NCBI GenBank assembly: GCA_947259215.1
Contig: CAMYLJ010000020.1
Span: 1-64,000, forward strand
Origin: an uncultured delta proteobacterium
Lineage (GTDB): Bacteria; Myxococcota_A; UBA9160; JAFDET01
DNA: 64,000 bases
Reading direction: 5' to 3'
Notes under the pieces: generated by a model
Told to the model about the DNA's origin: nothing
Databases searched by the model: none
The model's input: the letters and a program-made list of their open reading frames with translations, nothing else
Made by a program: the position numbers and the translations under genes
Shown here: piece after piece, positions 50,545-62,514 of the stretch
Layout of the letters: each line of letters begins with the position of its first letter
How positions within the stretch are numbered: the stretch's first letter is position 1

Positions 50545-51282
50545 CTATTCGGCGGAGACCGGGACGGCTTCGCCGGACAGCATTGCCTTGTGGATGAGGA
50601 TGCGTCGGCAGCTCCCGCAGACCTCGATGGTCTTGCCGGAGATCAGGTTCACGAAGGCCTGCGGCGGGATGCCCACCCGACAGCCCGAGCAGAGCTCCGT
50701 CGAGACGACGGCGACGCCGGGGCGTCGGCGCTCCACCACCTTCTGGTACGTCCGGAGGAGATCCGGCGGCAGCTTGGCGGCAGCCTCGTCCCGGGCCACG
50801 GTCAGCCGCGCCTGCTCGCCGGTCAGCTCCTGCTCCCGGGCGTCGAGGCGCTTTCTGAGGACGTCCACCCGCGCACCCACCTCCCGAGCCTTGTCCTCGG
50901 CGGCCGAGAGGGCCTCACGGGCCTCGTCCACGCGTTCCATGGCCTCCAGGATCGCGGTCTCCAGATCCCCCTCGGACTGCTTCAGACCGTCGATCTCGGC
51001 CAGCAGGGCCGTGTACTCCTCGTTGGTCTTCACGACCGCCGTCTTGCCCTCGCGGTCCTTGCGGCGCTCCTCGGTGCTGGCCAGCTCGCTCTCCTGCTCG
51101 CGGCGGGCCAGCTCCACCTCCTCGACCCGGGTGCGGGCGGCGGCCAGCGTCTCCTCGGCCTTGGCGCGGTCGGCATCGGCGGCCTGGCGCAGCCCCGGAA
51201 GGCCCGACACCTCGGCCTCGACGCCCGCCAGCTCGTCGTCCACCTGCTGGAGGGCCACGAGCTGTCGCAGGGTGTCGCGCAA
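50545..51282 (-). CDS. Coiled-coil protein with C4-type zinc ribbon (zf-RING_7, DUF164)
   Basis: 245 residues. A long antiparallel coiled coil (about 15-170; for example ARTRVEEVELARREQESELA) is followed by a zinc ribbon with CSGCRVGIPPQ and CGSCRRIL. Family proteins (such as HP0958 relatives) bind RNA or assist flagellar/translation processes in some bacteria; role unknown here. The start is TTG 51282 with GAGG upstream; TACCCT (51315-51320, minus) suits the leader. Confidence 0.88.
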   Translation of the reverse strand: MRDTLRQLVALQQVDDELAGVEAEVSGLPGLRQAADADRAKAEETLAAARTRVEEVELARREQESELASTEERRKDREGKTAVVKTNEEYTALLAEIDGLKQSEGDLETAILEAMERVDEAREALSAAEDKAREVGARVDVLRKRLDAREQELTGEQARLTVARDEAAAKLPPDLLRTYQKVVERRRPGVAVVSTELCSGCRVGIPPQAFVNLISGKTIEVCGSCRRILIHKAMLSGEAVPVSAE

Positions 51283-51381
51283 GGGAGGGACCTCGGAGGT
51301 AAAAGGCGAGCGGGAGGGTAGCGCGCGCCCGGGCCGGCGCGCGGGGTATCCTCTGGCTCGGGGGAGCCAGCAGGAGGCCCG

Positions 51382-51774
51382 ATGGCAGGCATGGAATGGG
51401 TGGCGGTCGTGACGCTTCTCGTGCTGGCGGAGTACCTGTACTTCGCCATGCAGGCAGGGATGTCCCGGGGCCGCTACGAGGTGCCGGCACCCGCCACGAC
51501 GGGCAATGAAACCTTCGAGCGGGTCTTCCGGGTCCAGGCCAACATGCTGGAGCAGCTGATCGCCTTCCTGCCCTCGCTCTGGCTGTTTGCGTACTACGTG
51601 CACCCGGGCGTCGCCGCGCTCCTCGGGCTGGTCTTCGGGGTCGGACGCTTCCTCTACGGACGCGGCTACGTCGAGAGCCCGGAGAAGCGCGGGCCCGGCT
51701 TCCTCACGAGCTTCGCCGCCACGCTGGTCCTGCTGCTGGGCGGCCTCTGCGGAGCGGTGATTCGGGCCCTGTGA
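51382..51774 (+). CDS. MAPEG family membrane protein
   Basis: 130 residues, four transmembrane helices. Family segment ERVFRVQANMLEQLIAFLPSLW and FGVGRFLYGRGYV match MAPEG (membrane-associated eicosanoid/glutathione metabolism) proteins. Glutathione-dependent activity is possible but unproven. GGAGG before ATG. Stop overlaps the next start as GTGA. Confidence 0.9.
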   Translation: MAGMEWVAVVTLLVLAEYLYFAMQAGMSRGRYEVPAPATTGNETFERVFRVQANMLEQLIAFLPSLWLFAYYVHPGVAALLGLVFGVGRFLYGRGYVESPEKRGPGFLTSFAATLVLLLGGLCGAVIRAL

Positions 51775-53159
51775 GCGAGCCCCAGCTGTCTCCGCTCGAG
51801 CGCTTCCTGCGCATCTTCACGGACGTGCGTCCGGGCGAGGGCCCCACCGCGCTCGTGCTCTTCGCCAACGTCTTCCTGGTGCTCTGCGCCTACTACCTGG
51901 TGAAGCCGCTGCGCGAGGGCTGGATCTCCATCTCGGACGTGGGCGACCTCAGCAAGATGGAGGTGAAGGCCTACTCCGCCTTCGGGCAGAGCCTGCTGCT
52001 CGTCCCGATCGTGCAGTGGTACGGCAAGCTTTCGGCGCGTGTCCCGCGCGCGCGGCTGATCGCAGGCGCCACCCTTTTCTGCATGACGAACCTGGTGGCC
52101 TTCTGGTTCCTGCAGCCGGACTTCTTCTTCGAACACCTGCCGGGGACGGGCGTCGTCTTCTACCTCTGGGTGGGGATGTTCGGGGTCTTCGTGGTGGCCC
52201 AGTTCTGGGCCTTCGCGGCGGACCTCTACAGCGACGGGCCTGGCAAGCGCCTGATTCCGCTGATCGCGATCGGCGCCACCGCCGGCGCGGCCGCCGGCTC
52301 CTCGCTGACCGGCGTGCTGGTGGAGTCTGAAGAACTGGTGAAGCGTTCGTTGCTGCTGGTTGCGATCGTGCCGCTCGGCGCTTCTATAGGACTCACGTGG
52401 TGGGCGGACCGGCGCGGCCCCCTGGGGCAGGGATCTCCCCCGCGCGCGCCGACTCCCCCGGACGACCCCGGGCGCCGCAGCGGGGCCATCCGGCTGGTCA
52501 TCGCCAGCAGCTACCTGCTGCCGGTGGCGCTGATCACGTTGCTGATGAACTGGGTGAACACCAACGGAGAGAACGTGCTCTTCCGCGTGGTCCAGGAATC
52601 GCTGTCGCAGCAGGCCGCGGGCCTCGGCATCGCCGATCCGGAGGCGCTCGACCGCTTCCGACAGGACGGAACGACGGCCTTTTACGGCAACTTCTTCCTA
52701 TGGGTGAACGCGATCGCATTGCTGCTCCAGGCCCTCGTGGCATCGCGTCTGTTGAAGTATGGGGGCTTCGGCGCGATCCTCATGCTGATGCCGGCGATCG
52801 CCCTCCTGGGCTACGCCGTGATGGCCCTGCTGCCCGTCCTGGCCGTGATCAAGGTGATGAAGATCGCCGAGAATTCGACCGATTACTCGATCAACAACAC
52901 GGCCCGGCACGTGCTCTGGCTACCGGTCTCCGCGGAGACCACATACAAGGGGAAGCCCACCGTGGACACCCTGTTCGCACGCCTCGGCGACTTCTTCGCC
53001 GCCCTGACGGTGGCGGTGGGCGTGCAGGTGCTGGCGCTGTCGACGGGCGGCTTCCTGGCCTTCACGGTCGCGCTCGTGGTCGCGTGGATGGTGCTCGGTG
53101 TGAATGTGGTGCGCGAGAACCTCCGCCTCACCCAGGAGGCAGAGCCCGATGCGGCGTAG
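51771..53159 (+). CDS. NTP/NDP antiporter-like (ADP/ATP translocase or MFS type) membrane protein
   Basis: 462 residues, about 11-12 transmembrane helices. YYLVKPLREGWI at the N-terminus and KIAENSTDYSINNTARHVLW plus PVSAETTYKGKPTVDTLFAR near 360-400 are hallmarks of the bacterial nucleotide-transporter (Npt/NTT-like) group seen in many free-living bacteria. The true substrate in such bacteria is not established. GTG start overlaps the MAPEG stop; its own end overlaps the next gene by 11 bp. First half of the locus described in the findings. Confidence 0.85.
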   Translation: MSEPQLSPLERFLRIFTDVRPGEGPTALVLFANVFLVLCAYYLVKPLREGWISISDVGDLSKMEVKAYSAFGQSLLLVPIVQWYGKLSARVPRARLIAGATLFCMTNLVAFWFLQPDFFFEHLPGTGVVFYLWVGMFGVFVVAQFWAFAADLYSDGPGKRLIPLIAIGATAGAAAGSSLTGVLVESEELVKRSLLLVAIVPLGASIGLTWWADRRGPLGQGSPPRAPTPPDDPGRRSGAIRLVIASSYLLPVALITLLMNWVNTNGENVLFRVVQESLSQQAAGLGIADPEALDRFRQDGTTAFYGNFFLWVNAIALLLQALVASRLLKYGGFGAILMLMPAIALLGYAVMALLPVLAVIKVMKIAENSTDYSINNTARHVLWLPVSAETTYKGKPTVDTLFARLGDFFAALTVAVGVQVLALSTGGFLAFTVALVVAWMVLGVNVVRENLRLTQEAEPDAA

Positions 53160-54171
53160 CGCGGCCCTGCTCGCGGCCTTGGCGCTCTGCCTGCCTGTCC
53201 TGTCCGCCCGCGCGGATGACGTGGACGGCAAAGACGGGCCCAAGCTGCGCCAGCGGCGTCCTCCCCGGACCCGCGTGGCCCCGATCTTCGAAGACCCGGT
53301 GCTCCAGCGCATGTGGGACCTGGACCGGATCGCGCCCTTCGAGGACAAGGCCCCGCTCTGGAGCTACGCGGACCGCGGTCTCGAAGCGGAGGTGCTCGGC
53401 GCCCTGCGCGAGCTGAAGCTGCTGGACGCCGTGCGCCGCAAGAAGCTGGCGGTGGTGCTGGTGGAGATCTCGGACGTCGAGCGCCCGAGGGTCGCCAACA
53501 TCAACGGCGACGTGATGCTCTACGCCGCAAGCCTGCCCAAGATCGCCATCCTGCTCGGCGCCTTCGAGAAGATCGCCGAGGGCAAGCTCCGCCTGGACGC
53601 CGAGACCGAGCGCCAGCTCGAGGACATGATCCGCGTGTCCTCGAACACGGCCGCCACCGCCATGGCCCGCAAGGTGGGCAAGCGGTACATCGCCCGCACC
53701 ATGCTCTCGCCGCGCTACCGCCTCTACGACCCCGAGCACAACGGCGGCCTCTGGGTGGGGAAGGACTACGCCAAGAAGGGCCTGTGGAAGCGCGACCCGC
53801 TCCACAACCTCTCCCACGGCGCCACGGCCATGCAGGTGGCGCGCTACTACTACCTGCTGCAGACCGGGAACCTGGTCACGCCCGCGTACTCCCGGAAGAT
53901 GAAGCAGATCCTCTCCAAGCCGGCGATCCAACACAAGTTCGTGAGCGGGCTCAACATGGTGAACCCGGCGGCGCTGCTCTTCCGCAAGTCCGGAAGCTGG
54001 CGCACCTTCCACTCGGACAGCGTGCTGGTGGAGCGCGATGGACGCGCCTACATCGCCGTGGCGCTGGCCGACAGCCCGGACGCCAAGCGCTGGCTCGGGC
54101 CCATCATCGTGTCCCTGGACTCCATCGTGTTCGGGAAGTCCTGGCTCCACGGCCTGGCCGGCGTGAACTAG
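53149..54171 (+). CDS. Exported class A beta-lactamase-fold serine hydrolase (A)
   Basis: 340 residues, signal peptide of about 22 residues. The three active-site motifs of the penicillin-recognising fold are visible: SxxK at Ser128-Lys131 (ASLPK), SxN as SSN 164-166, and KSG 280-282. The usual Glu166 omega-loop motif is not evident, so it may be a peptidase/esterase or non-catalytic binder rather than a beta-lactamase. Overlaps the transporter gene end by 11 bp (GGAGG upstream), so the two are coupled. Convergent with its paralogue through CTAG at 54168-54171. Confidence 0.87.
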   Translation: MRRSAALLAALALCLPVLSARADDVDGKDGPKLRQRRPPRTRVAPIFEDPVLQRMWDLDRIAPFEDKAPLWSYADRGLEAEVLGALRELKLLDAVRRKKLAVVLVEISDVERPRVANINGDVMLYAASLPKIAILLGAFEKIAEGKLRLDAETERQLEDMIRVSSNTAATAMARKVGKRYIARTMLSPRYRLYDPEHNGGLWVGKDYAKKGLWKRDPLHNLSHGATAMQVARYYYLLQTGNLVTPAYSRKMKQILSKPAIQHKFVSGLNMVNPAALLFRKSGSWRTFHSDSVLVERDGRAYIAVALADSPDAKRWLGPIIVSLDSIVFGKSWLHGLAGVN

Positions 54172-55541
54172 GAGCCCGTCGGCTCCGGGAACTCGTCCGG
54201 CGACGCGTCCGGGATCGGCCGCGCCGGGACGTTCGACCAGGGGAGGACCTCCTCCGGCGGCGGCGGATGCGCGACCTCCCACGCCTCCAGGCGATCGATC
54301 AGGATCCGCTGCACCTCCGCACCGACGTCGCGGTGGAGCTCCGCCGAGTTCTTGCGCAGCACGTTGGAAAGCATGACGGCGATGTAGTCGAGCTTCTTGT
54401 GGGTCTCGACGCCCTCCACCACCGCGATGGAGTTCATGTAGTTCATGCGGTTGCCGAGGTACTTGCCGCACTCGAAGCCCTTCTCCGGCTTGCAGCCGTA
54501 GAGCGAGCCCGACTTGAAGTAGACCGCGAAGTCGTAGAGCGCGCGCGAGGACGCGTAGCGGATGCGTCCGTCGGTCAGGTAGAGCAGCCGCTTGATCTCC
54601 AGGCTCGACCACACGTCCACGAGCTTGCCCTGCTCCATGAACAGCAGGTAACGCATCAGCTCGCCCGCCGTGGAGACGCTGTTGGTGCCGGGCACGCGCC
54701 CCTTGCCGGTGCGGGTAAAGAAGCTCCCCTGGCGCAGCTTCTCCGGGTCGAGGCCGTTGCGCGCGATCGGCTCGATCATGGCCTCGCGGTAGAGCTTGCC
54801 GAGCTGGCTCTTCGGGGTGTTCTTCAGGAAGGCGTCCGCTTCTTCCCGAGGCACCGGGTAGCGCGTACCGAAGTGCTTGAGCAGCAGCAGCTCGGACTGG
54901 AGCTTCCCGGCCGCGGCGTTGGAGCTGGCGGAGGCCATCCAGTCGAGCCAGGTGTACAGGTTGGCGGCGTCGCCGATCGCGATGGGCCGCTTCTCGTAGG
55001 CCGGCTCGCCGGGCGTCCAGAAGGGGACGTCGTGGCTGTCGAACTTGATCCAGTCGTCCGCCACCACCCGCGTGTCCCGCAGGATGCGGTGGCGGGCGTC
55101 CTTGTCCTCGGGGTAGACGTCGGCCAGGGCCTGGAACCAACCCAGCAGCACCAGGATCTTCCCGACGCTCCCCGGGTTCTGGACCTTGTCCGGGTTGTGG
55201 AGCACCAGGCGCGGCTCGCCGTCGATGGAGATGTCGAGGACGACGAGGCCGTAGTCGTCGGCGTCCTCCCCCAGCATCGCGACCACCCGCTCGGTCAACT
55301 CCGGATCGGGCTCGGGCAGCACGAAGTCGTGCTGGTCCAGCAGGCGCAGCGTCACCTCCTTCAGGTAGAGCTGACCGCCCCAGGGCAGGATGCGGCCCTG
55401 CATCTCGCCTTCCTGCACCAGGCGGTAGGCCTCGAGCCGCGGGATCCCGGTCTGCGGGTAGGCGTCGATCGGGTAGGCGCCGGCGCTAGCGGCCAGCAAC
55501 GCGGCAGCGCAGAGCAGGGCGAGGCGCGCGGCTCTCATCAC
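54168..55541 (-). CDS. Exported class A beta-lactamase-fold serine hydrolase (B)
   Basis: 457 residues (GTG 55541; ATG at 55538 equally possible). Signal peptide. Active-site motifs: Ser125-Lys128 (PGSVGK), SSN 206-208 and KSG starting at Lys343 (YFKSGSL). The same three-motif layout as the convergent neighbour but a longer insert between motifs 2 and 3 and an acidic N-terminal region. Start overlaps the stop of the dikinase-like gene, so it is translated with it. Function unknown; paralogous to 53149-54171 in fold. Confidence 0.86.
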   Translation of the reverse strand: MMRAARLALLCAAALLAASAGAYPIDAYPQTGIPRLEAYRLVQEGEMQGRILPWGGQLYLKEVTLRLLDQHDFVLPEPDPELTERVVAMLGEDADDYGLVVLDISIDGEPRLVLHNPDKVQNPGSVGKILVLLGWFQALADVYPEDKDARHRILRDTRVVADDWIKFDSHDVPFWTPGEPAYEKRPIAIGDAANLYTWLDWMASASSNAAAGKLQSELLLLKHFGTRYPVPREEADAFLKNTPKSQLGKLYREAMIEPIARNGLDPEKLRQGSFFTRTGKGRVPGTNSVSTAGELMRYLLFMEQGKLVDVWSSLEIKRLLYLTDGRIRYASSRALYDFAVYFKSGSLYGCKPEKGFECGKYLGNRMNYMNSIAVVEGVETHKKLDYIAVMLSNVLRKNSAELHRDVGAEVQRILIDRLEAWEVAHPPPPEEVLPWSNVPARPIPDASPDEFPEPTGS

Positions 55542-58495
55542 TCCACCTCCTTGGGGACGCCGTTCAGGTCCACCCAGTTGCTCCCGCGGTCGCCGAGGCG
55601 GGCGTCCAGGGAGAGCAGGTACTCGTTTCGCTGGGCGCTCTTGCTCTCGACGAAGGGCCGCAGCTGGAGCAGCGCCAGCTTGCCGCCCTTGAACGCGAAC
55701 TCCACGTCCGCCGGCTTCGGCGGGCCCGCCTCCTCGCGCAGCGACGGGAACTGGTCGGGCGCGGTCTTCGCGAAGGCCACCAGCTGCTGGATCTCACCCG
55801 GCCGGAGCACCTGCTGGGTGCCGCTCGCGGGCACGTGGTCGACGCCCCCGGCCAGGGTGACGATCGCCTTGTCGGGCGCCGTGGCCTGGGCCAGGAAGCG
55901 GGTCTCGGAGCCATCGGCGCGCACCAGGAGCGACTCGGTGGCCTGCCCCTCCACGGCCCCGCCGACGCCCTCGGAGACCGCGATGGAGAGCCAGTTGGGA
56001 TCGCCCGTGTCCACGTCGGCCGTGACCATCACGCCCGACTTCTCCGCCGGGAAGGCAAGCTGCACCACCACGGCGGGGAAGACGTACTCCGGGCCCTCCA
56101 TGTTGTTCTGGCGCCAGCTGTAGGCGCGCTCGGTGAAGGGCGAGGCCCAGACCTGGCGCACGGCGCGCTTGATCTCGTCCTTGCCCACCACGTTCGGCAG
56201 GGTCAGGTTGAGACCCGCGCCGGTGAAGCCGGCCAGGTCCTCCACGTTGGTGTCGCTGCGCACGAAGACGCCGTAGGTCCCGTCGGCGCCGAAGGTCTCG
56301 TCGAGGGCACGCGAGAGCTCGGCGTCGAAGTCCGGCGGGAAGCCGGTGGTCTCGATCCAGCTGCGCAGGCGGGTGAGGAACTCCCGCACCGCCTTTTCCT
56401 GCGCCTCGGACTGCCCGTCCAGCGCGGCGATGGCCGCGTAGCGCGCGCGCATCCAGTCCCAGACCGACGGGCCGCCGGGCTCGAGCGGGCGATCGAGCTG
56501 CTTGCGGAAGACGCCGAAGGGGATCACGAAGCCCGGCGGCACCGCGGCGCCGAAGTGGTGCTTCAGCTCGCCCAGGTTGGCGCCCTTCGGACCGGAGAGG
56601 CGCCCCGAGTCCGCGGCGCGGAGCGTCGTCAGCGGCACCACGTGCACCTCGGAAAGGTCGAGCTTCACCAGGTCCGGGCGGATCACCACGTCGCCGGCCG
56701 CGGCCGCGCCCCCGCCGCGCGGTCCGAAGACGGCGTCCCAGGAGGGTCCGTCCTCCGCCAGCTGCACCACCCCGCCCGGGCTCACCGCCAGCACCGCGGG
56801 CTGGCCGATGCGCTGTTTCACCGCGGGCAGCGCCAGCTCACCCACCACGACGTTCGGGATGCCGAGGTTGCGGGCCAGGAGCTGCACGTGGGAGAGGGAG
56901 CTGCCCTCGCCCAAGGTCAGGATGCCGGCCACGGGCGGCAGCTCTGCCACGGTCTCGGGCAGCAGGTAGATGCCGTCGCGCCGCAGGCCGTGGAGCTCGC
57001 CGTCGGGGGCCAACAGCGCGCCCCGGGCCAGGCCCGGGTTCAGCGCCCGCAGGCCCGCGCCGCGGGTCACGCCGAAGAGCTGGTGCTCGATCCCGCCCAC
57101 GCGGTTGGCGTCGTTTCCCAGGTCGTCGACGATGGCGCTGTAGAAGAGCAGCGGGCTCCCGCGCACGCGGAACTGCGGGTAGAGCCGGGCCTCCGGGTCG
57201 AGGACGGCGAAGCGCTCCACCTGCGGCGCGAAGTTGAACTCGATCCAGCGCCCGGCCCACTCCGGGACCCGCGCCAGGTAGCGGACCTCTTCGCGCCAGA
57301 CGTCCACGGTGAGGGGCGCGGCGGCTTCGATCCGCGCCACGCTGGAGCGCACGCCCTGGACGCCGCGCTCCGAGACGAGACCCGTCCCGTAGAGCGCCTC
57401 GATGGCGCGCTCGACCCAGAAGAGGCGCTCGAGGCGGGTCGCCTTCGCGAGCTCCGGCAGCAGGGCGTTGCCCGCGGCGTAGGCCTCGTCCTCCAGCACC
57501 AGGCTCGCCTCGAGCAGCGAGCGCCGGCCGGCGGGCGTCGTCGACTCCTTGTCGAAGAGGTCGCGGTAGTAGGCCAGGTAGCGGGCCGCCAGCACGAAGC
57601 GGTCGCCCGTGGATTCCGCCGCGCGCAGCTTCTCGGCGTGGCGCACCAGCATGGCGCCGACGCGCTCGTCCGCACTCGCCTCGCCGATGGCGGTCAGCGC
57701 GTCTGCCGCGCCGCGCCCGGCGTAGAGTCGGTCGATGGCCGCGGCCAGCTCCTCGTACAGCGGCCGTGCGGCATCGCGGCCCTTCTCCGCGTCGTACGCG
57801 CGCACGCGCGCCGCGTCCTCGGCGTCGGGTGAATTGTGGATCTTCGCGCGCAGGGCGTTGAAGCCCGGGTCCTCTACGGCCACGTCGATCGCGAGCTGGC
57901 GCACCGCCGCGGCGCTGGTGGCGTCGGTCGTGCGCGGGAGCAGCCGCAGGGACTCGCGCGCGAGGAAGTAGCGCGCGGGGTCGAGCCACTCCGGGTCGGC
58001 GAGGATGGCGTCGACGATCCGGGCCGCGCCCGCCTCCTCGTCTTCGATCTGCAGGGCGCCGCGGTAACGGAGGGCGCCGTGGAAGATCCAGCCCTGGTCC
58101 ACGCCCATCATGAAGCGCTCCAGCAGGATCTGGCGCAGGCCGTCGAGATCCGGCGAACCACCGCGGAACGTGTCGCCCGAGAGGTCGGCGAGGACGTTGC
58201 CCACCCGGTAGCCGCCATCCCGCAACGCCACGGTGCGCGCGTTCCACTCGCCGTGCTGGATGCCCCCGCCGCGCTTCTCGCACGGATAGGGCTTCGGCGG
58301 GTGGACGGTACCGTCGGCGCAGAACCAGCGGATGCGCTCGAAGGGGCCCTTGGGCGAACCCTTCATCTCCACGATCCAGCTGCGCAGGGTGGCCTCGTCC
58401 GGTAGCGCCGCCGCGGCCGGGGCCGCGAGCGCGAAGACCGCGAACCATGACAGAAGGGTGGGGAGGCGTGAAGCCTGACGTCTGGGGGGCGACAT
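55538..58495 (-). CDS. Exported pyruvate phosphate dikinase/PEP synthase-like protein
   Basis: 985 residues. Signal peptide (LSWFAVFALAAPAAA), an N-terminal helical region without recognised domain (36 to about 480), a phosphohistidine swivel domain with His536 (GSSLSHVQLLARNLGIPNVV), then a C-terminal PPDK ATP-grasp domain from about 632 (GPKGANLGELKHHF; FVRSDTNVEDLAGFTGAG; ending LLQLRPF). The swivel-before-ATP-grasp order is that of glucan water dikinases, not PEP synthase, and no pyruvate/PEP TIM barrel is present. An exported ATP-using dikinase is unexpected. TATGCT (58505-58510, minus) ends 9 nt before ATG. Confidence 0.85.
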   Translation of the reverse strand: MSPPRRQASRLPTLLSWFAVFALAAPAAAALPDEATLRSWIVEMKGSPKGPFERIRWFCADGTVHPPKPYPCEKRGGGIQHGEWNARTVALRDGGYRVGNVLADLSGDTFRGGSPDLDGLRQILLERFMMGVDQGWIFHGALRYRGALQIEDEEAGAARIVDAILADPEWLDPARYFLARESLRLLPRTTDATSAAAVRQLAIDVAVEDPGFNALRAKIHNSPDAEDAARVRAYDAEKGRDAARPLYEELAAAIDRLYAGRGAADALTAIGEASADERVGAMLVRHAEKLRAAESTGDRFVLAARYLAYYRDLFDKESTTPAGRRSLLEASLVLEDEAYAAGNALLPELAKATRLERLFWVERAIEALYGTGLVSERGVQGVRSSVARIEAAAPLTVDVWREEVRYLARVPEWAGRWIEFNFAPQVERFAVLDPEARLYPQFRVRGSPLLFYSAIVDDLGNDANRVGGIEHQLFGVTRGAGLRALNPGLARGALLAPDGELHGLRRDGIYLLPETVAELPPVAGILTLGEGSSLSHVQLLARNLGIPNVVVGELALPAVKQRIGQPAVLAVSPGGVVQLAEDGPSWDAVFGPRGGGAAAAGDVVIRPDLVKLDLSEVHVVPLTTLRAADSGRLSGPKGANLGELKHHFGAAVPPGFVIPFGVFRKQLDRPLEPGGPSVWDWMRARYAAIAALDGQSEAQEKAVREFLTRLRSWIETTGFPPDFDAELSRALDETFGADGTYGVFVRSDTNVEDLAGFTGAGLNLTLPNVVGKDEIKRAVRQVWASPFTERAYSWRQNNMEGPEYVFPAVVVQLAFPAEKSGVMVTADVDTGDPNWLSIAVSEGVGGAVEGQATESLLVRADGSETRFLAQATAPDKAIVTLAGGVDHVPASGTQQVLRPGEIQQLVAFAKTAPDQFPSLREEAGPPKPADVEFAFKGGKLALLQLRPFVESKSAQRNEYLLSLDARLGDRGSNWVDLNGVPKEVE

Positions 58496-58504
58496 AGGGG
58501 GCAG

Positions 58505-58543
58505 AGCATACCCCAGGGTTCGCAGCTGTCGGGGTGGTATGGT
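58505..58543. promoter_or_regulatory. Divergent leaderless-type promoter pair
   Basis: Minus TATGCT (58505-58510) ends 9 nt before the dikinase-like ATG (58495). Plus TATGGT (58538-58543) ends 9 nt before the transporter-fusion ATG (58553). No Shine-Dalgarno on either side. The two genes are thus launched from a 57-bp gap. Confidence 0.5.
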
Positions 58544-58552
58544 GGCCCCGGC

Positions 58553-61500
58553 ATGTGGCGACGACTGGGAATCGAGCCCGGCGAAGGCCGGCTCTTCGCG
58601 TGGGCCGCAGCGACCCTCTTCCTGTTGGGGTGGGCCTACGTCTCGGTCACGAACGTGTCCGAGGTCTTCTTCATCAAGCGGATCGACGTCCGCTACCTGC
58701 CCCTGGCCTTCCTGGCGAGCTCCGCCGTCCTGGTGGTGACGACACTGGCCCTCGGCCGCTTCGCGGTGAACCGCAACCGGGTGCGGCTGCTGCCCGCGGT
58801 GCTGCTGGGCCTCGGCCTCGTGCTGATACCCCTGTGGCTGGCAGTGGGGAGCGACCTCACGCCGGTCCTCGGGCTGCTGGTGATCGTGTCGAAGCAGATC
58901 CAGGCCCTGGGCCTGCTGATCTTCCTGCTGGCCCTGAGCGACCTGCTCCACCCGCGCCAGGCCAAGCGTCTATTCGCGCCACTGATGGCCGGCATGACCC
59001 TCGGCACCATGCTCGGGAGCTTCGCGTCGGAACCCCTCGGACGCTGGCTCGGCATCGACGCCCTGCTGCCCATCTCGACGGCGGTGCTGGCGGGCTCGGC
59101 CCTGATGGCGATCCCGCTGCGCCGCGGCGTGCGTCGGCGCCTCGGTGGACGCGGCGAGGGCGACGAGGTGATACCCACGCCCGTAGCCACGACGACGCCG
59201 AGCGAGGAGGCCGGGTTCGGGAGCCTGTGGCGCGAAAGCCGACTCTTCCGCCTGCTGGCGCTGACGACCCTGGCCTCGGGGCTCCTCGGCCCGATGCTCT
59301 ACTTCCAGTTCCAGTACGTCGCGGACCTGGCCACCCGGGGCGAGGGCGGCGAGGGCGCCCTGCTGCGGATCCTGGCGTGGTTCCGCGGCTCGGTGAGCTT
59401 CTTCATCCTCTTCACGCAGCTCGGCCTGACGGGCGTGATCTACCGACGCATCGGCCTCCCCCTGGCCGCCGCCATCTCACCGGGCGTGTACCTGCTCGGG
59501 TTCGCCGGAGTGGCGGTGAACCAGTCGCTGCCCGCGGGCGTCGGTGGACTCGCGGGCGCCAAGTTCGTGGACAACGCCATCTACGACCCCGCCCTGCGCG
59601 TTCTCTACAACCTCTTCCGGGAAGGCGTGCGCTCCCAGGCGGTGGCGTTCCTCGAGGGCCCGGTGAAGCGCGGCGGCGGGGTGCTCGGGAATCTGCTGAC
59701 CCAGGCGCTGATCCTGGTGGTGGGCCCGTTCCTCGTGCCCTGGGTTGGGCTCGCGCTGGCGGGAGGCTGGCTGGCGGTGGCGCTCGTCCTGTGGCGACTC
59801 TACCCGGAGCTCCTGATGGGTGCGGTCAACGCCCGGGGCCCCCGCAGCTTCGACCAGCTGCCTCTGGACGAACTCCTCGACCCCTCCACCGAGCGCGTGC
59901 TGGCGCGTCAGCTCCTGAGTCCCGATCCGCAGGTCGTGCGCCTGGCCATCGACCTGTGCAGCGAGGGAAGTCCCGAGCGGGCCGTGGCCGCCCTGGCCGA
60001 GGCCGTCCGGGAAGCACCGGGCGACACGCGATCCCTGCTCGTGGACAGCCTGGACCGGTTGCTCGAAGCATCGGTCGTGACGAGCGCCGTGACCCACGCG
60101 AAGGCGGCCCAGGACCTGGCCGACCTGCTGGCCCAGCCGGGCAAGCTGGAGGGCATCGACCGCGCCAACGTGGTGCAGGCCTACGGCCGCCTGACCGAAG
60201 GCGCCCCGAGCGAGGACGACCGCGCCCTGCTCGAGCGCGCCCGTGCCGAACGCAGCCCGGGCGTGCGGCTGGCGGCGCGGGTCGCGCTGGCGCGGCGCGG
60301 CGATCTGCAGGCCGGGGATCTGCTGCCGGAGCTGGGCGAGGCCGCGACCGGGCCGGACCCCGTCGCGCGCCAGATCGCGCGCGAGGAGCTCCGGGCCCTG
60401 CTCGTGCAGGGCGATCCCGAGACGGATCCAACGGAGTGGGCACAGACCCACGAGGTCCTGCTGCGGGGCCTCGCCCGCGCCGACGAGCGCGCGACGACCG
60501 CCGAGGCCCTGGCGGACGTGGCGGAGCAGCATCCGAACTGGACCGCCGCGGCCCGCGAGCCGATGCTCGCGCTCCTCGAAGACCCGGATTCCGCAACGCG
60601 GGCGGCGGCCATGCGCTTCGTCGGGGCGGCGGGGATGGCGGAGGTGGCGAAGCGACTGGTCGGAGCCGTCGACGCGGAGGATGCGGACGAGGCGATCGCA
60701 GCCTGCCGCAGCCTGCGGGCGCTCGGCCCCGCCGCGGCCGACGTGCTGCTGGTGGAGCTCTCCTACGGCCGCCGCAGCCGCCGCGACACCTTGCTGCGTC
60801 TGGTGGGCGAGCTCGAGGTGGAAGAGCAGACGTTGCTCACCCTCTACGAGCGCGAGCTGGACGCGCTCCACCGCACGGTCCTCAACTGCTCGGCCCTGCG
60901 CTCGCGGGCTTCGTCCATCGTGATCCAGCGCCTGGAGGAACGAATCGGCGAAGGCACGCACACGACGTTGTTGCTGCTCGCCGCGCTACACCATGAAGAG
61001 TCGATCGCGCAGCTGGCGGAACACCTGAAGCGCACTCCCGACCCGCGGCGGCGCGCCATCCTGCTCGAAGCCCTGGAGGCGTTGCTCCAACCCGAGGAGA
61101 AGCGGCTGCTGCTGCCGCTGCTCGAGGACAGCTCCACCCAGCACAAGGCGACGCGCGCCGCCGAGCGGCTCGGCATCCCGATCCCGAGCAGCGAGATCGC
61201 GGCGCGCGATCTGGAGGCGGATTCCGACGAGCTGACGCGCATGCTCTTCGCAGCCACCGGCCTGTCCCAGGACGGCGAAGTGGCCGGAGTGGCGGTTCTG
61301 GACGATGCTAGAGGCACCTTGAAGCCCGTCGAGATCGCCCTCTCCCTGCGCCGGACGCCGCTCTTCGAGCGTCTCTCGACCCGGCACCTGGTGGACATCG
61401 CCGGGGTGGTGCACCAGGAGCGCCATTCCGCCGGGACCGTGCTCTTTCACGAGGGCGATCTCGGCACCAGCATGTTCCTGATCGTCGAAGGTCGCATCCG

Positions 61501-61741
61501 CATCCGACGCGGCAGCCAGGACATCGGGGTGCTCGGGCCGGAGGAGTTCTTCGGTGAGATGGGCCTGCTGGAGGCGGCCCCGCGCACGGCGACCGCGCTC
61601 TGTGACTGCGACGTGCAGCTGCTGCGCCTCGAGCGCGACGAGCTGCTGGCCCTGATGGAGGAGCTGCCGGCCATCGCGATCGGCGTGGCCCAGGAACTCT
61701 CCCGCCGCTACCGGACCGTGCTGGAGCAGATTCCCGCATAG
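58553..61741 (+). CDS. Transporter-like / HEAT repeat / cyclic-nucleotide-binding fusion
   Basis: 1062 residues. Residues 1 to about 420: 10-12 transmembrane helices of nucleotide-transporter/MFS type (SDLLHPRQAKRLFAPLMAG, KFVDNAIYDPALRVLYNLF). About 430-880: HEAT-like helical repeats. About 920-1050: a cNMP-binding domain (FHEGDLGTSMFLIVEGRIRI, PEEFFGEMGLLEAAPRTATA) with the PRTATA phosphate-binding cassette intact. Suggests transport or signalling gated by a cyclic nucleotide through a HEAT linker. Known architecture in deltaproteobacteria, but function unproven. Divergent from the dikinase-like gene; ends 17 bp from the convergent NYN gene. Confidence 0.85.
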   Translation: MWRRLGIEPGEGRLFAWAAATLFLLGWAYVSVTNVSEVFFIKRIDVRYLPLAFLASSAVLVVTTLALGRFAVNRNRVRLLPAVLLGLGLVLIPLWLAVGSDLTPVLGLLVIVSKQIQALGLLIFLLALSDLLHPRQAKRLFAPLMAGMTLGTMLGSFASEPLGRWLGIDALLPISTAVLAGSALMAIPLRRGVRRRLGGRGEGDEVIPTPVATTTPSEEAGFGSLWRESRLFRLLALTTLASGLLGPMLYFQFQYVADLATRGEGGEGALLRILAWFRGSVSFFILFTQLGLTGVIYRRIGLPLAAAISPGVYLLGFAGVAVNQSLPAGVGGLAGAKFVDNAIYDPALRVLYNLFREGVRSQAVAFLEGPVKRGGGVLGNLLTQALILVVGPFLVPWVGLALAGGWLAVALVLWRLYPELLMGAVNARGPRSFDQLPLDELLDPSTERVLARQLLSPDPQVVRLAIDLCSEGSPERAVAALAEAVREAPGDTRSLLVDSLDRLLEASVVTSAVTHAKAAQDLADLLAQPGKLEGIDRANVVQAYGRLTEGAPSEDDRALLERARAERSPGVRLAARVALARRGDLQAGDLLPELGEAATGPDPVARQIAREELRALLVQGDPETDPTEWAQTHEVLLRGLARADERATTAEALADVAEQHPNWTAAAREPMLALLEDPDSATRAAAMRFVGAAGMAEVAKRLVGAVDAEDADEAIAACRSLRALGPAAADVLLVELSYGRRSRRDTLLRLVGELEVEEQTLLTLYERELDALHRTVLNCSALRSRASSIVIQRLEERIGEGTHTTLLLLAALHHEESIAQLAEHLKRTPDPRRRAILLEALEALLQPEEKRLLLPLLEDSSTQHKATRAAERLGIPIPSSEIAARDLEADSDELTRMLFAATGLSQDGEVAGVAVLDDARGTLKPVEIALSLRRTPLFERLSTRHLVDIAGVVHQERHSAGTVLFHEGDLGTSMFLIVEGRIRIRRGSQDIGVLGPEEFFGEMGLLEAAPRTATALCDCDVQLLRLERDELLALMEELPAIAIGVAQELSRRYRTVLEQIPA

Positions 61742-61758: not shown

Positions 61759-62514
61759 CTAGCCCGTCACCCGCACCAGGTAGTTGCCGCGCGACTCGTC
61801 GTAGTCGAGCTCTACCAGGTCGCGCTTCTCCAGGTCCTGGAGGACCGCGGCGAAGGAATCGTAGCCGAAGGCCTGCTCGTTGAAGCCCGGATCCACGCGG
61901 CGCACGGTCTGCTTCACCATCGAGCCCCAGATCTGGTCGTAATCGCGCTCGAGCGAGCGGATGATCTCCATCACCGTGTCGCTGGCCTCGTCCTTCTTGG
62001 AGACCTTGGCCGTCGTCTTGCGCCGGGTGGGGCGGGGCTTCTCCGCGGCAGTGACGAGGTCGTCGTAGTAGATGAACTCGTCGGAGGCGTTCACGAGCAG
62101 ATCCGACGTGGAGGACTTGACGCCGCAGCCGATGACGCGCTTGTCGTTCTCCTTCAGCTTGGCCACGAGCGGGGAGAAATCGCTGTCTCCGGAGACCAGA
62201 GTGAAGACGTCGATGTGCTGCTTGGCGTAACAGAGGTCCAGGGCGTCCACGACCATGTGGATGTCGGCGCTGTTCTTGCCGGAGACGCCGGTCTGCGGAA
62301 TGTCCACCATCTCGACGCCGTGGCGGTGGAAGGTCTCGGTCTGCTTCCGGTAGCCGCTCCAGTCGCAGTAGGCGCGCTTGTAGACGATCCGCCCCTTCTC
62401 GAGCAGGCGCTTCAGCACCAGCTCGATGCGGAACGCACCCCACTTCATGCGCCGGGCGCCGATGGCGAGGTTCTCGAAATCGATGAAGACGGCGATCCGC
62501 GGTTCGTCAGCCAC
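61759..62514 (-). CDS. NYN domain (LabA/DUF88) PIN-like RNase with C-terminal winged domain
   Basis: 251 residues. N-terminal NYN domain with the acidic site: FIDFENLAIG, GKNSADIHMVVDALDL, and LVSGDSDFSPLVAKLKEND. A basic linker (about 160-180) leads to a C-terminal OST-HTH/LOTUS-like domain (LERDYDQIWGSMVKQTVRRV...). Predicted metal-dependent RNase of the PIN-like superfamily. GTG start; TATGCT (62521-62526, minus) ends 6 nt upstream. Confidence 0.9.
   Translation of the reverse strand: MADEPRIAVFIDFENLAIGARRMKWGAFRIELVLKRLLEKGRIVYKRAYCDWSGYRKQTETFHRHGVEMVDIPQTGVSGKNSADIHMVVDALDLCYAKQHIDVFTLVSGDSDFSPLVAKLKENDKRVIGCGVKSSTSDLLVNASDEFIYYDDLVTAAEKPRPTRRKTTAKVSKKDEASDTVMEIIRSLERDYDQIWGSMVKQTVRRVDPGFNEQAFGYDSFAAVLQDLEKRDLVELDYDESRGNYLVRVTG

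Follow-up and report, generated by a model that had tools for sequence, protein, structure and literature searches.

A compact, widespread and conserved set of NTT-family carriers, a predicted exported dikinase and two predicted exported hydrolases suggests export of ATP or a related nucleotide to power envelope chemistry in some bacteria

The NTT translocators, among them AtNTT1 and Chlamydia pneumoniae NTT1, have a sequence profile in common with both carriers of the locus described here (denoted A and E) and share the fold of A. PEP synthase, rifampin phosphotransferase (RPH), HpeI and glucan water dikinase combine an ATP-grasp domain with a phosphohistidine domain, both with catalytic residues, as does a third protein of the locus (D); in plant glucan water dikinase the His domain lies N-terminal to a C-terminal ATP-grasp domain. 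Class A beta-lactamases and the Beta-lactamase2 family have the SxxK, SxN and KSG motifs in common with the two remaining proteins (B and C), of which B matches the family model. No supply of ATP is known outside the bacterial cytoplasmic membrane, and for that reason ATP-dependent enzymes are unexpected there. The architecture of E, in which an NTT domain is followed in one chain by HEAT repeats and a domain that binds cyclic nucleotides, has already been published, its function being called unknown there (Major et al. 2017, PMC5381601). Free-living bacteria have many NTT genes for which this 2017 survey gives no explanation, and words starting with periplasm or export are absent from its main text (PMC5381601).

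The window, that is, the whole stretch of DNA analysed, comprises 64,000 nucleotides. A sequence-only reading had described five genes there together with their strands and overlaps; ORF and Pfam checks confirmed the coordinates and strands of all five, A to E:

51771..53159, plus strand: A, predicted inner-membrane carrier of the NTT (ATP/ADP translocator) family, 462 aa (Pfam TLC, profile, fold)
53149..54171, plus strand: B, about 340 aa, predicted to be an exported serine hydrolase and a member of the class A beta-lactamase fold family (Beta-lactamase2, invariant motifs, signal-like N-terminus)
54168..55538, minus strand: C, predicted exported serine hydrolase of the superfamily of B, 456 aa, overlapping D (HMM convergence with B, motifs)
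55538..58495, minus strand: D, predicted exported dikinase, 985 aa, in the order signal peptide, helical N-terminal region, phosphohistidine domain, ATP-grasp domain (PEP-utilizers, PPDK_N, AF2 model, signal-like N-terminus)
55628..56593, minus strand: C-terminal ATP-grasp (PPDK_N) domain of D (Pfam, shifted by 2; fold matches)
56843..56965, minus strand: core of the phosphohistidine (PEP-utilizers) domain of D (Pfam, residue numbers moved by 2 to fit the 985-aa start)
56888-56890, minus strand: codon of the predicted catalytic His536 of D (alignment of 61 rows)
58496..58552, no strand: intergenic stretch of 57 bp from which D and E diverge (sequence)
58553..61741, plus strand: E, 1062 aa, NTT-family carrier extended by HEAT repeats and a domain for binding cyclic nucleotides (HEAT_2, cNMP_binding, HMM)
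61421..61660, plus strand: cNMP-binding domain of E, residues 957-1036, including FGEMGLLEAAPRTATA (Pfam)

Inspection of the sequence refined three starts: B is taken from the ATG at 53149, which lies behind AGGAGG and is preferred over the ORF opening at 53104, C from the ATG at 55538, which overlaps the stop codon of D as TGATG, and D from the ATG at 58495. The palindrome CTAG at 54168-54171 supplies the stop codons of both B and C. The order A> B> <C <D E> is also found in three relatives with whole loci (L033, L036 and L037), and other phyla have the B-C-D-NTT set as well, which together put this layout far beyond chance. A flanking NYN gene is likewise conserved within the same family.

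Co-occurrence was examined in 188 genomes of the phylum, a sample of a larger group. The same 11 genomes contain each of D, B and C, and an A-type NTT in 10 of these 11 and in none of the other 177, with thresholds (E<1e-130 for A-type, E=0 for D) that were set after the gaps were seen and with Fisher tests that ignore kinship. The eleventh genome (G161) carries a different NTT of 772 aa adjoining its D/B locus. Among 40 genomes, the window's own and relatives, an A-type NTT is present in 18/20 with D and 0/20 without it. Where D has 5 kb or more of downstream sequence (50 loci), a six-frame HMM search found C at 46, B at 44, an NTT at 41 and all three at 37, leaving 4 without C, 6 without B and 9 without an NTT within 10 kb; with gene calls from GC by codon position (n=51) the counts were 44, 43, 41 and 32, respectively. 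Ten seemingly NTT-free loci come from nine genomes, eight of which carry an NTT somewhere, and no NTT was detected at E<=1e-10 in the D genome behind L127, for which completeness is not given. Paralogs of D (L046, L051-L055) have a B-like gene nearby, mostly with no adjacent NTT.

The genes remain linked, though in other orders and on other strands, in loci whose D shows 44-46% identity (L116, L126, L132, L133, L134, L140). In a tree of the carriers, in which the long branches at L105, at L149 and where two groups join are unsure in position, D-linked NTTs spread over several NTT subfamilies and are mixed with unlinked ones, and the NTTs therefore seem to have been recruited repeatedly to the dikinase-hydrolase module. 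No recurrent extra partner such as an exported nucleotidase or adenylate kinase was seen among neighbour clusters in at least four loci, judged by eye from the sequences. The proposal that these genes form one system was borne out by the neighbourhood and co-occurrence analyses, in which the B-C-D-NTT set, and not just one pair, is conserved beyond this strain. Together, these data demonstrate that the five genes represent a real conserved system, of which E is limited to a subset.

The carriers had been read as relatives of nucleotide transporters, and this assignment holds for A by Pfam TLC, profile and fold, and for the carrier half of E through a shared HMM family. A passes the TLC model with 23.5 bits against a cut-off of 21, a model matched at E<=0.001 by 39 of the 59 rows of an NTT alignment (57 NTT matches, A and E; matches of fewer than 330 profile positions were left out). 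The family profile of A matches NTT1 of Chlamydia (9j3n, E 9.9e-38) and of the chloroplast (9j3j, E 1.4e-33) over its full length, covering positions 7-415 of 418. An AF2 model of A, the only carrier modelled (pLDDT 92.5), has ATP-bound AtNTT1 (9j3l) as its best fold match (Z 36.4, 2.5 A, 418 residues), the next non-NTT row standing at Z 28.0; the NTT1 structures outscore the LacY, AmpG and NupG rows. By its full-length profile homology and a predicted 12-helix MFS-like fold closest to NTT1, A belongs to the NTT (TLC) family. The relationship is distant, with about 17-19% identity to NTT1, and A scores 23.5 bits against a cut-off of 387.2 for the NTP/NDP exchange transporter model TIGR00769, for which E is not listed. 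Of K155, E245, E385 and K527, which we take to be the essential residues of AtNTT1, only E385 is kept in A, as read by eye from a profile alignment with an inferred numbering offset; hence the cargo of A may differ.

E carries the NTT domain, HEAT repeats (HEAT_2) and a cNMP-binding domain (cNMP_binding, E 1e-19) in a single chain, and its carrier half and A converge on one HMM family, sharing 61 of 62 members each. An E-sized NTT-HEAT-cNMP protein of about 1000 aa or more is present at just 11 of 79 scored D loci, all 11 labelled Deltaproteobacteria or Myxococcota, with shorter NTTs at the other loci; gating by a cyclic nucleotide, part of the sequence-only reading, thus finds no support as a core feature. 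A look for an adenylate cyclase beside NTT-HEAT genes met a protein kinase in each of the two neighbours scanned, with a weak match to Cache in one of them.

D matches PPDK_N (E 3e-38) and PEP-utilizers (E 3e-5). In an alignment of 61 rows, comprising the window and 60 of 80 loci (L127 fell out after a stop codon, the others by choice), H536, K637, R746, E752, E932, Q944 and R946 are invariant, as are C59 and C72. In its AF2 model (pLDDT 87.4, pTM 0.84) the ATP-grasp half matches the folds of RPH and PEP synthase with Z 30-35; the rows of the fold searches (Foldseek, VIA) span only residues ~540-954, which gives no ground for calling the fold of the N-terminal half new. A signal-like N-terminus is found in 57/60 relatives of D and in 219/563 other ORFs under a similarly lenient test, a home-made heuristic that passes 39% of other ORFs too. 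In other families of the phylum, distant dikinases that likewise place the His domain ahead of the ATP-grasp domain have signal or lipoprotein-like starts, and one of them (L149) adjoins an NTT. D is thus predicted to be an exported dikinase with the His domain before the ATP-grasp domain and intact catalytic residues.

The description of D as an exported PPDK-like protein stands for the exported dikinase and fails for the PPDK: the Pfam scan gave no PEP/pyruvate-binding barrel, the protein ending just after the ATP-grasp domain, and the His domain comes first, so that D is neither a PPDK nor a PEP synthase. Glucan water dikinase was also considered. Its domain order fits, but the GWD1_pHisD model (PF22973) has no match at E<=10 in the genome of the window, and Pfam finds no starch-binding CBM45 domain in D.

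B matches Pfam Beta-lactamase2 (E 4e-17), has a signal-like N-terminus, and keeps S143xxK146, S179/N181 and K295-S-G in 57/57 relatives (numbering of the 355-aa ORF). C has no Pfam or NCBIfam match and is linked to B solely by convergence of iterated HMM searches on one family; its S125 and K128 are present in 69/69 rows, and S206-S207-N208, K343-S-G and C350/C358 are invariant in 34 rows. The reduced alignments hold 30 B relatives from the 57-row set and 33 C relatives from the 69-row set. Profile searches of PDB gave weak TLL2115 matches for B and nothing credible for C, PHROGs gave no match to either, and no clear counterpart of Glu166, the class A general base, was assigned in them. Their intact SxxK, SxN and KSG motifs identify B and C as class-A-beta-lactamase-like proteins, predicted to be exported and to act as hydrolases.

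Periplasmic phosphoryl transfer, as had been suggested, is the natural reading of this system. The best explanation, to which we give slightly less than an even chance, is a phosphorylation system in the periplasm that draws on the cytoplasm, in which the carriers supply ATP or another nucleotide, D phosphorylates an acceptor, and B and C act on the same material. For such a system we infer the nucleotide cargo, the direction of transport, the acceptor and the roles of B and C as follows. A, in the inner membrane, would send ATP or another nucleotide out of the cytoplasm and take in spent nucleotide in return, and E would be a second carrier in some lineages, possibly tuned by a cyclic nucleotide. 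Through His536, D would convert ATP, acceptor and water to AMP, phospho-acceptor and Pi (water dikinase chemistry), its N-terminal region holding the acceptor, for which a glycan of the periplasm, a fragment of cell wall or a small molecule is most likely. C and B, as putative exported serine acyl-enzymes, would cut or transfer acyl groups on this acceptor material. AMP, the product of a dikinase, is not known to be taken by the best-known NTT1 carriers, which counts against ATP supply.

The changed residues of A bear directly on another possibility, rather unlikely in our view, that the carriers move some other anionic solute that D, B or C uses or makes, for instance a nucleotide sugar, a sugar phosphate or a phosphorylated piece of the wall, for import or recycling and not for ATP supply. 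Three of the four key residues differ, the MFS fold serves many anions, and NTTs from several subfamilies can stand in for one another at the locus; yet the intact ATP-grasp and His sites of D need nucleotide where D is located, and the structures clearly nearest to A, above LacY, AmpG and NupG, are those of NTT1. Scavenging would run the system inward, B and C releasing outside material, D forming ATP or capturing external nucleotide, and the carriers importing nucleotide as in intracellular parasites. We consider this improbable: hosts of D include Mariprofundus, Guyparkeria and Halothiobacillus, lineages of free-living chemolithotrophs, and among the neighbour clusters examined none that recurs beside D is an exported nucleotidase or kinase, even though the characterised parasite NTTs import ATP, according to the 2017 survey (PMC5381601).

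The rifampin phosphotransferases among the best folds of the ATP half of D, and the beta-lactamase-like superfamily of B and C, could also be taken to mark an envelope drug-inactivation island, with D RPH-like, B and C beta-lactamases, and A and E efflux pumps. This is very improbable, since the domain order of D is the reverse of that of RPH, no NCBIfam model, whether for resistance or otherwise, matches B or C, and the genes stay together as one set throughout whole families instead of being scattered. That the genes are unrelated neighbours, together by chance or shared ancestry alone, has next to no probability left. The NYN gene conserved within the same family speaks for it, but co-occurrence and linkage counts refute the idea: linkage survives rearranged order and strand in loci with D at 44-46% identity, and the partner NTTs come from different subfamilies.

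The nucleotide-fed phosphorylation system has a bolder form, which we put forward tentatively and with appreciably less than even confidence: free-living Gram-negatives may run a periplasmic ATP economy, in which NTT carriers export ATP to an exported dikinase that phosphorylates an envelope component. If true, the textbook rule of an ATP-free periplasm would be broken, and the many NTT genes of free-living bacteria would in part be ATP exporters, recruited several times to one dikinase-hydrolase module. Through this conserved module, the role of NTTs in free-living bacteria and the supply of nucleotide to the periplasm become testable together. D is found in records titled as isolates (among them Mariprofundus ferrooxydans PV-1, Guyparkeria hydrothermalis R3 and Aestuariicella albida HHU G3-2) and is therefore open to study outside MAGs.

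A search of the open-access literature, with most subscription papers outside its scope and hence no proof of absence, found no published description of an exported or periplasmic dikinase or of this gene set. Compared with the described NTT translocators, A and E are distant, with most of the key residues changed, and are linked to a predicted exported dikinase and two hydrolases. Unlike the known water dikinases, D is predicted to be exported, has its His domain first and no PEP/pyruvate barrel, and carries an N-terminal region with no identified relative. B and C differ from class A beta-lactamases as two divergent copies tied to a dikinase locus, whose relatives of solved structure are weak for B (TLL2115) and not credible for C.

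The five genes A to E fill positions 51771-61741 of the window, with hardly any spare bases between them:

51771-53159, plus strand: A, a 462-aa NTT-family carrier
53149-54171, plus strand: B, serine hydrolase; ATG at 53149 behind AGGAGG, within the 3' end of A
ATG 55538 to a stop in CTAG 54168-54171, minus strand: C, serine hydrolase; stop shared with B
from ATG 58495, minus strand: D, dikinase; stop overlapped by the start of C
from ATG 58553, plus strand: E, NTT-HEAT-cNMP fusion, divergent from D

The palindrome CTAG at 54168-54171 provides the stops of both B and C. The start of C shares a single base with the stop of D (TGATG, preceded by GGAGG), so D and C are likely translationally coupled; D and the divergent E are separated by 57 bp. 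The locus is flanked by an NYN-domain protein (61759-62514, minus strand), seen beside E only in same-family genomes (L031-L033), and on the other side by a CT398-like zinc-ribbon coiled-coil protein (50545-51603, minus strand).

D orthologs (at least 50% identity) were present in 20 of 40 genomes, comprising the window's own and its relatives. An A-type NTT (E<1e-130) accompanied D in 18 of these 20 and was found in none of the 20 lacking D; the complete order A> B> <C <D E> is kept in L033, L036 and L037. In 188 genomes sampled from the phylum, B, C and D (E=0) share an identical set of 11, ten of which carry an A-type NTT, as do 0 of the 177 others. In the eleventh (G161), a 772-aa NTT adjoins B within the gene cluster that includes D. 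Since 91 of the 188 have an NTT of some kind (E<=1e-30), the co-occurrence with D is specific to the A type. With one named genome per species, 338 relatives of D were found; the best 80 belong, by titles, to Deltaproteobacteria or Myxococcota, Desulfobacterales, Gamma- and Zetaproteobacteria and Nitrospirae. Six-frame HMM searches of the 50 loci from these best 80 with at least 5 kb downstream detected C in 46, B in 44, an NTT in 41 and all three in 37. These distributions bear out the sequence-only reading of the five genes as one system. Nine of the 50 loci have no NTT within 10 kb; together with L072, which shares a genome with L073, they represent nine genomes, eight of which encode an NTT somewhere, while the genome search found none in that of L127. 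In three Mariprofundus loci (L106, L117, L119) B is present as a tandem pair and no NTT lies inside 10 kb, each genome having one elsewhere.

In a 69-row ML tree of NTTs, with weak support at some deep forks and with long branches flagged, D-linked NTTs fall into the A-type clade; a second one, drawn from Pseudomonadota, Thermodesulfobacteriota and Nitrospirota, whose proteins mostly measure 422-443 aa; a single-domain clade (L136, L109) with unlinked L141, L143, L144 and L145, one unlinked member being from the window's own genome; a 660-772-aa clade alongside unlinked L146 and L147; and the E-type clade with unlinked L142. Because D-linked NTTs are spread over several clades, some with unlinked members, different NTTs appear to have been joined to the same D-C-B core, the weak forks and long branches leaving the exact number of events loose. 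Such repeated recruitment makes the strongest case for NTT-type transport being important to D.

A scores above the Pfam TLC cut-off and falls far short of that of TIGR00769. A profile built from 59 rows, comprising A, E and their relatives, matched NTT1 of Chlamydia (E 1e-37) and of the chloroplast (E 1e-33) along the full length. As modelled by AF2 (pLDDT 92.5), A superimposes on ATP-bound AtNTT1 with Z 36.4 and 2.5 A over 418 residues (next non-NTT row, Z 28). Of four AtNTT1 residues that we take to be essential, three are changed in A in the profile alignment, read by eye. HMM searches with A and with the carrier half of E end in a single family, having 61 of their 62 matches each in common; in E this half is followed by HEAT repeats and a cNMP domain. 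Cyclic-nucleotide gating had been proposed for the system as a whole; the cNMP domain is part of E, and proteins of the E size class occur in 11 of 79 D loci, so such control would be a lineage add-on. A 2017 paper describes the NTT-HEAT-cNMP architecture, with function unknown (PMC5381601).

Several unlinked NTTs have neighbors of their own. A second E-type NTT (1067 aa) in the window's own genome directly follows a sodium:dicarboxylate symporter-solute-binding domain fusion (L142 4749-10248, contig C55). A separate cNMP-domain protein lies between two NTT genes, in like order in both genomes, at L143 4878-12032 and L144 5166-10431. At L146 5143-9532 and L147 1204-5541 a 725-751-aa NTT gene adjoins one for a membrane Ser/Thr protein kinase, which at one of the two loci shows a weak Cache-domain match; this NTT could possibly be a sensed carrier.

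D has a His domain followed by an ATP-grasp domain, and the Pfam scan found no PEP/pyruvate barrel. Its catalytic residues, as well as C59/C72, do not vary across 61 rows, and the ATP-grasp half resembles rifampin phosphotransferase and PEP synthase in fold (Z 30-35); a light search identified no relative of the helical N-terminal half. HMM searches started from B and from C arrive at a single serine-hydrolase family, with 126 matches in common out of 129 and 128. The SxxK/SxN/KSG residues of B are invariant in 57/57 rows and SxxK of C in 69/69; SSN, KSG and the pair C350/C358 of C are invariant in 34 rows. Of 60 D relatives, 57 carry a basic n-region and a hydrophobic stretch ahead of the conserved part. 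A similarly lenient test is passed by 219 of 563 other ORFs, so the signal-like N-termini of D are support, not proof. Starts as called by the gene finder are signal-like in 57/79 D, 59/68 C and 49/55 B proteins, and an oxidising compartment would suit the invariant cysteine pairs of D and C. D thus appears to be exported, and B and C apparently reach the same place, as putative serine acyl-enzymes presumably working on the same material as D.

NTT carriers are known for exchanging ATP across membranes. As the D site needs nucleotide, D appears exported and the partner gene is of the NTT family, the simplest reading is that the carriers would feed nucleotide to the periplasm and return a product. 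The changed residues in A and its distance from the TIGR00769 cut-off hold this nucleotide-supply reading back; cargo, direction and acceptor are proposals, and we give the mechanism, plausible as it is, slightly less than an even chance.

Related dikinases occur elsewhere. D paralogs at 32-36% identity have a B-like serine hydrolase gene nearby in G001, G002, G010, G011, G017 and G038, and shorter proteins share the domain order:

L046 7794-10874, L051 3293-6892, L052 6190-9258: D paralogs with B-like gene
L053 1889-5905, L054 3790-6873, L055 5840-9154: D paralogs with B-like gene
L148-L154 (G109, G063, G093, G176, G060, G157; other families of the phylum): shorter His-then-ATP-grasp proteins

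These paralog loci, most of them lacking an adjacent NTT, represent an alternative form of the dikinase-hydrolase pair; such paralogs, one a fragment, are present in 7 of the 20 D-bearing genomes and in none of the 20 that lack D. A further 11 genomes of the 188 encode proteins matching only the His-then-ATP-grasp half, and nine of these 11 have NTTs. Among seven such proteins from six genomes, several have lipoprotein-like or secreted-like starts, and that of L149 adjoins a 1165-aa NTT. From these paralogs, N-termini and NTT associations, extracytoplasmic dikinases may form a broader class. The gene system is real and widespread and, undescribed in the open-access literature searched, brings known families together in a new combination.
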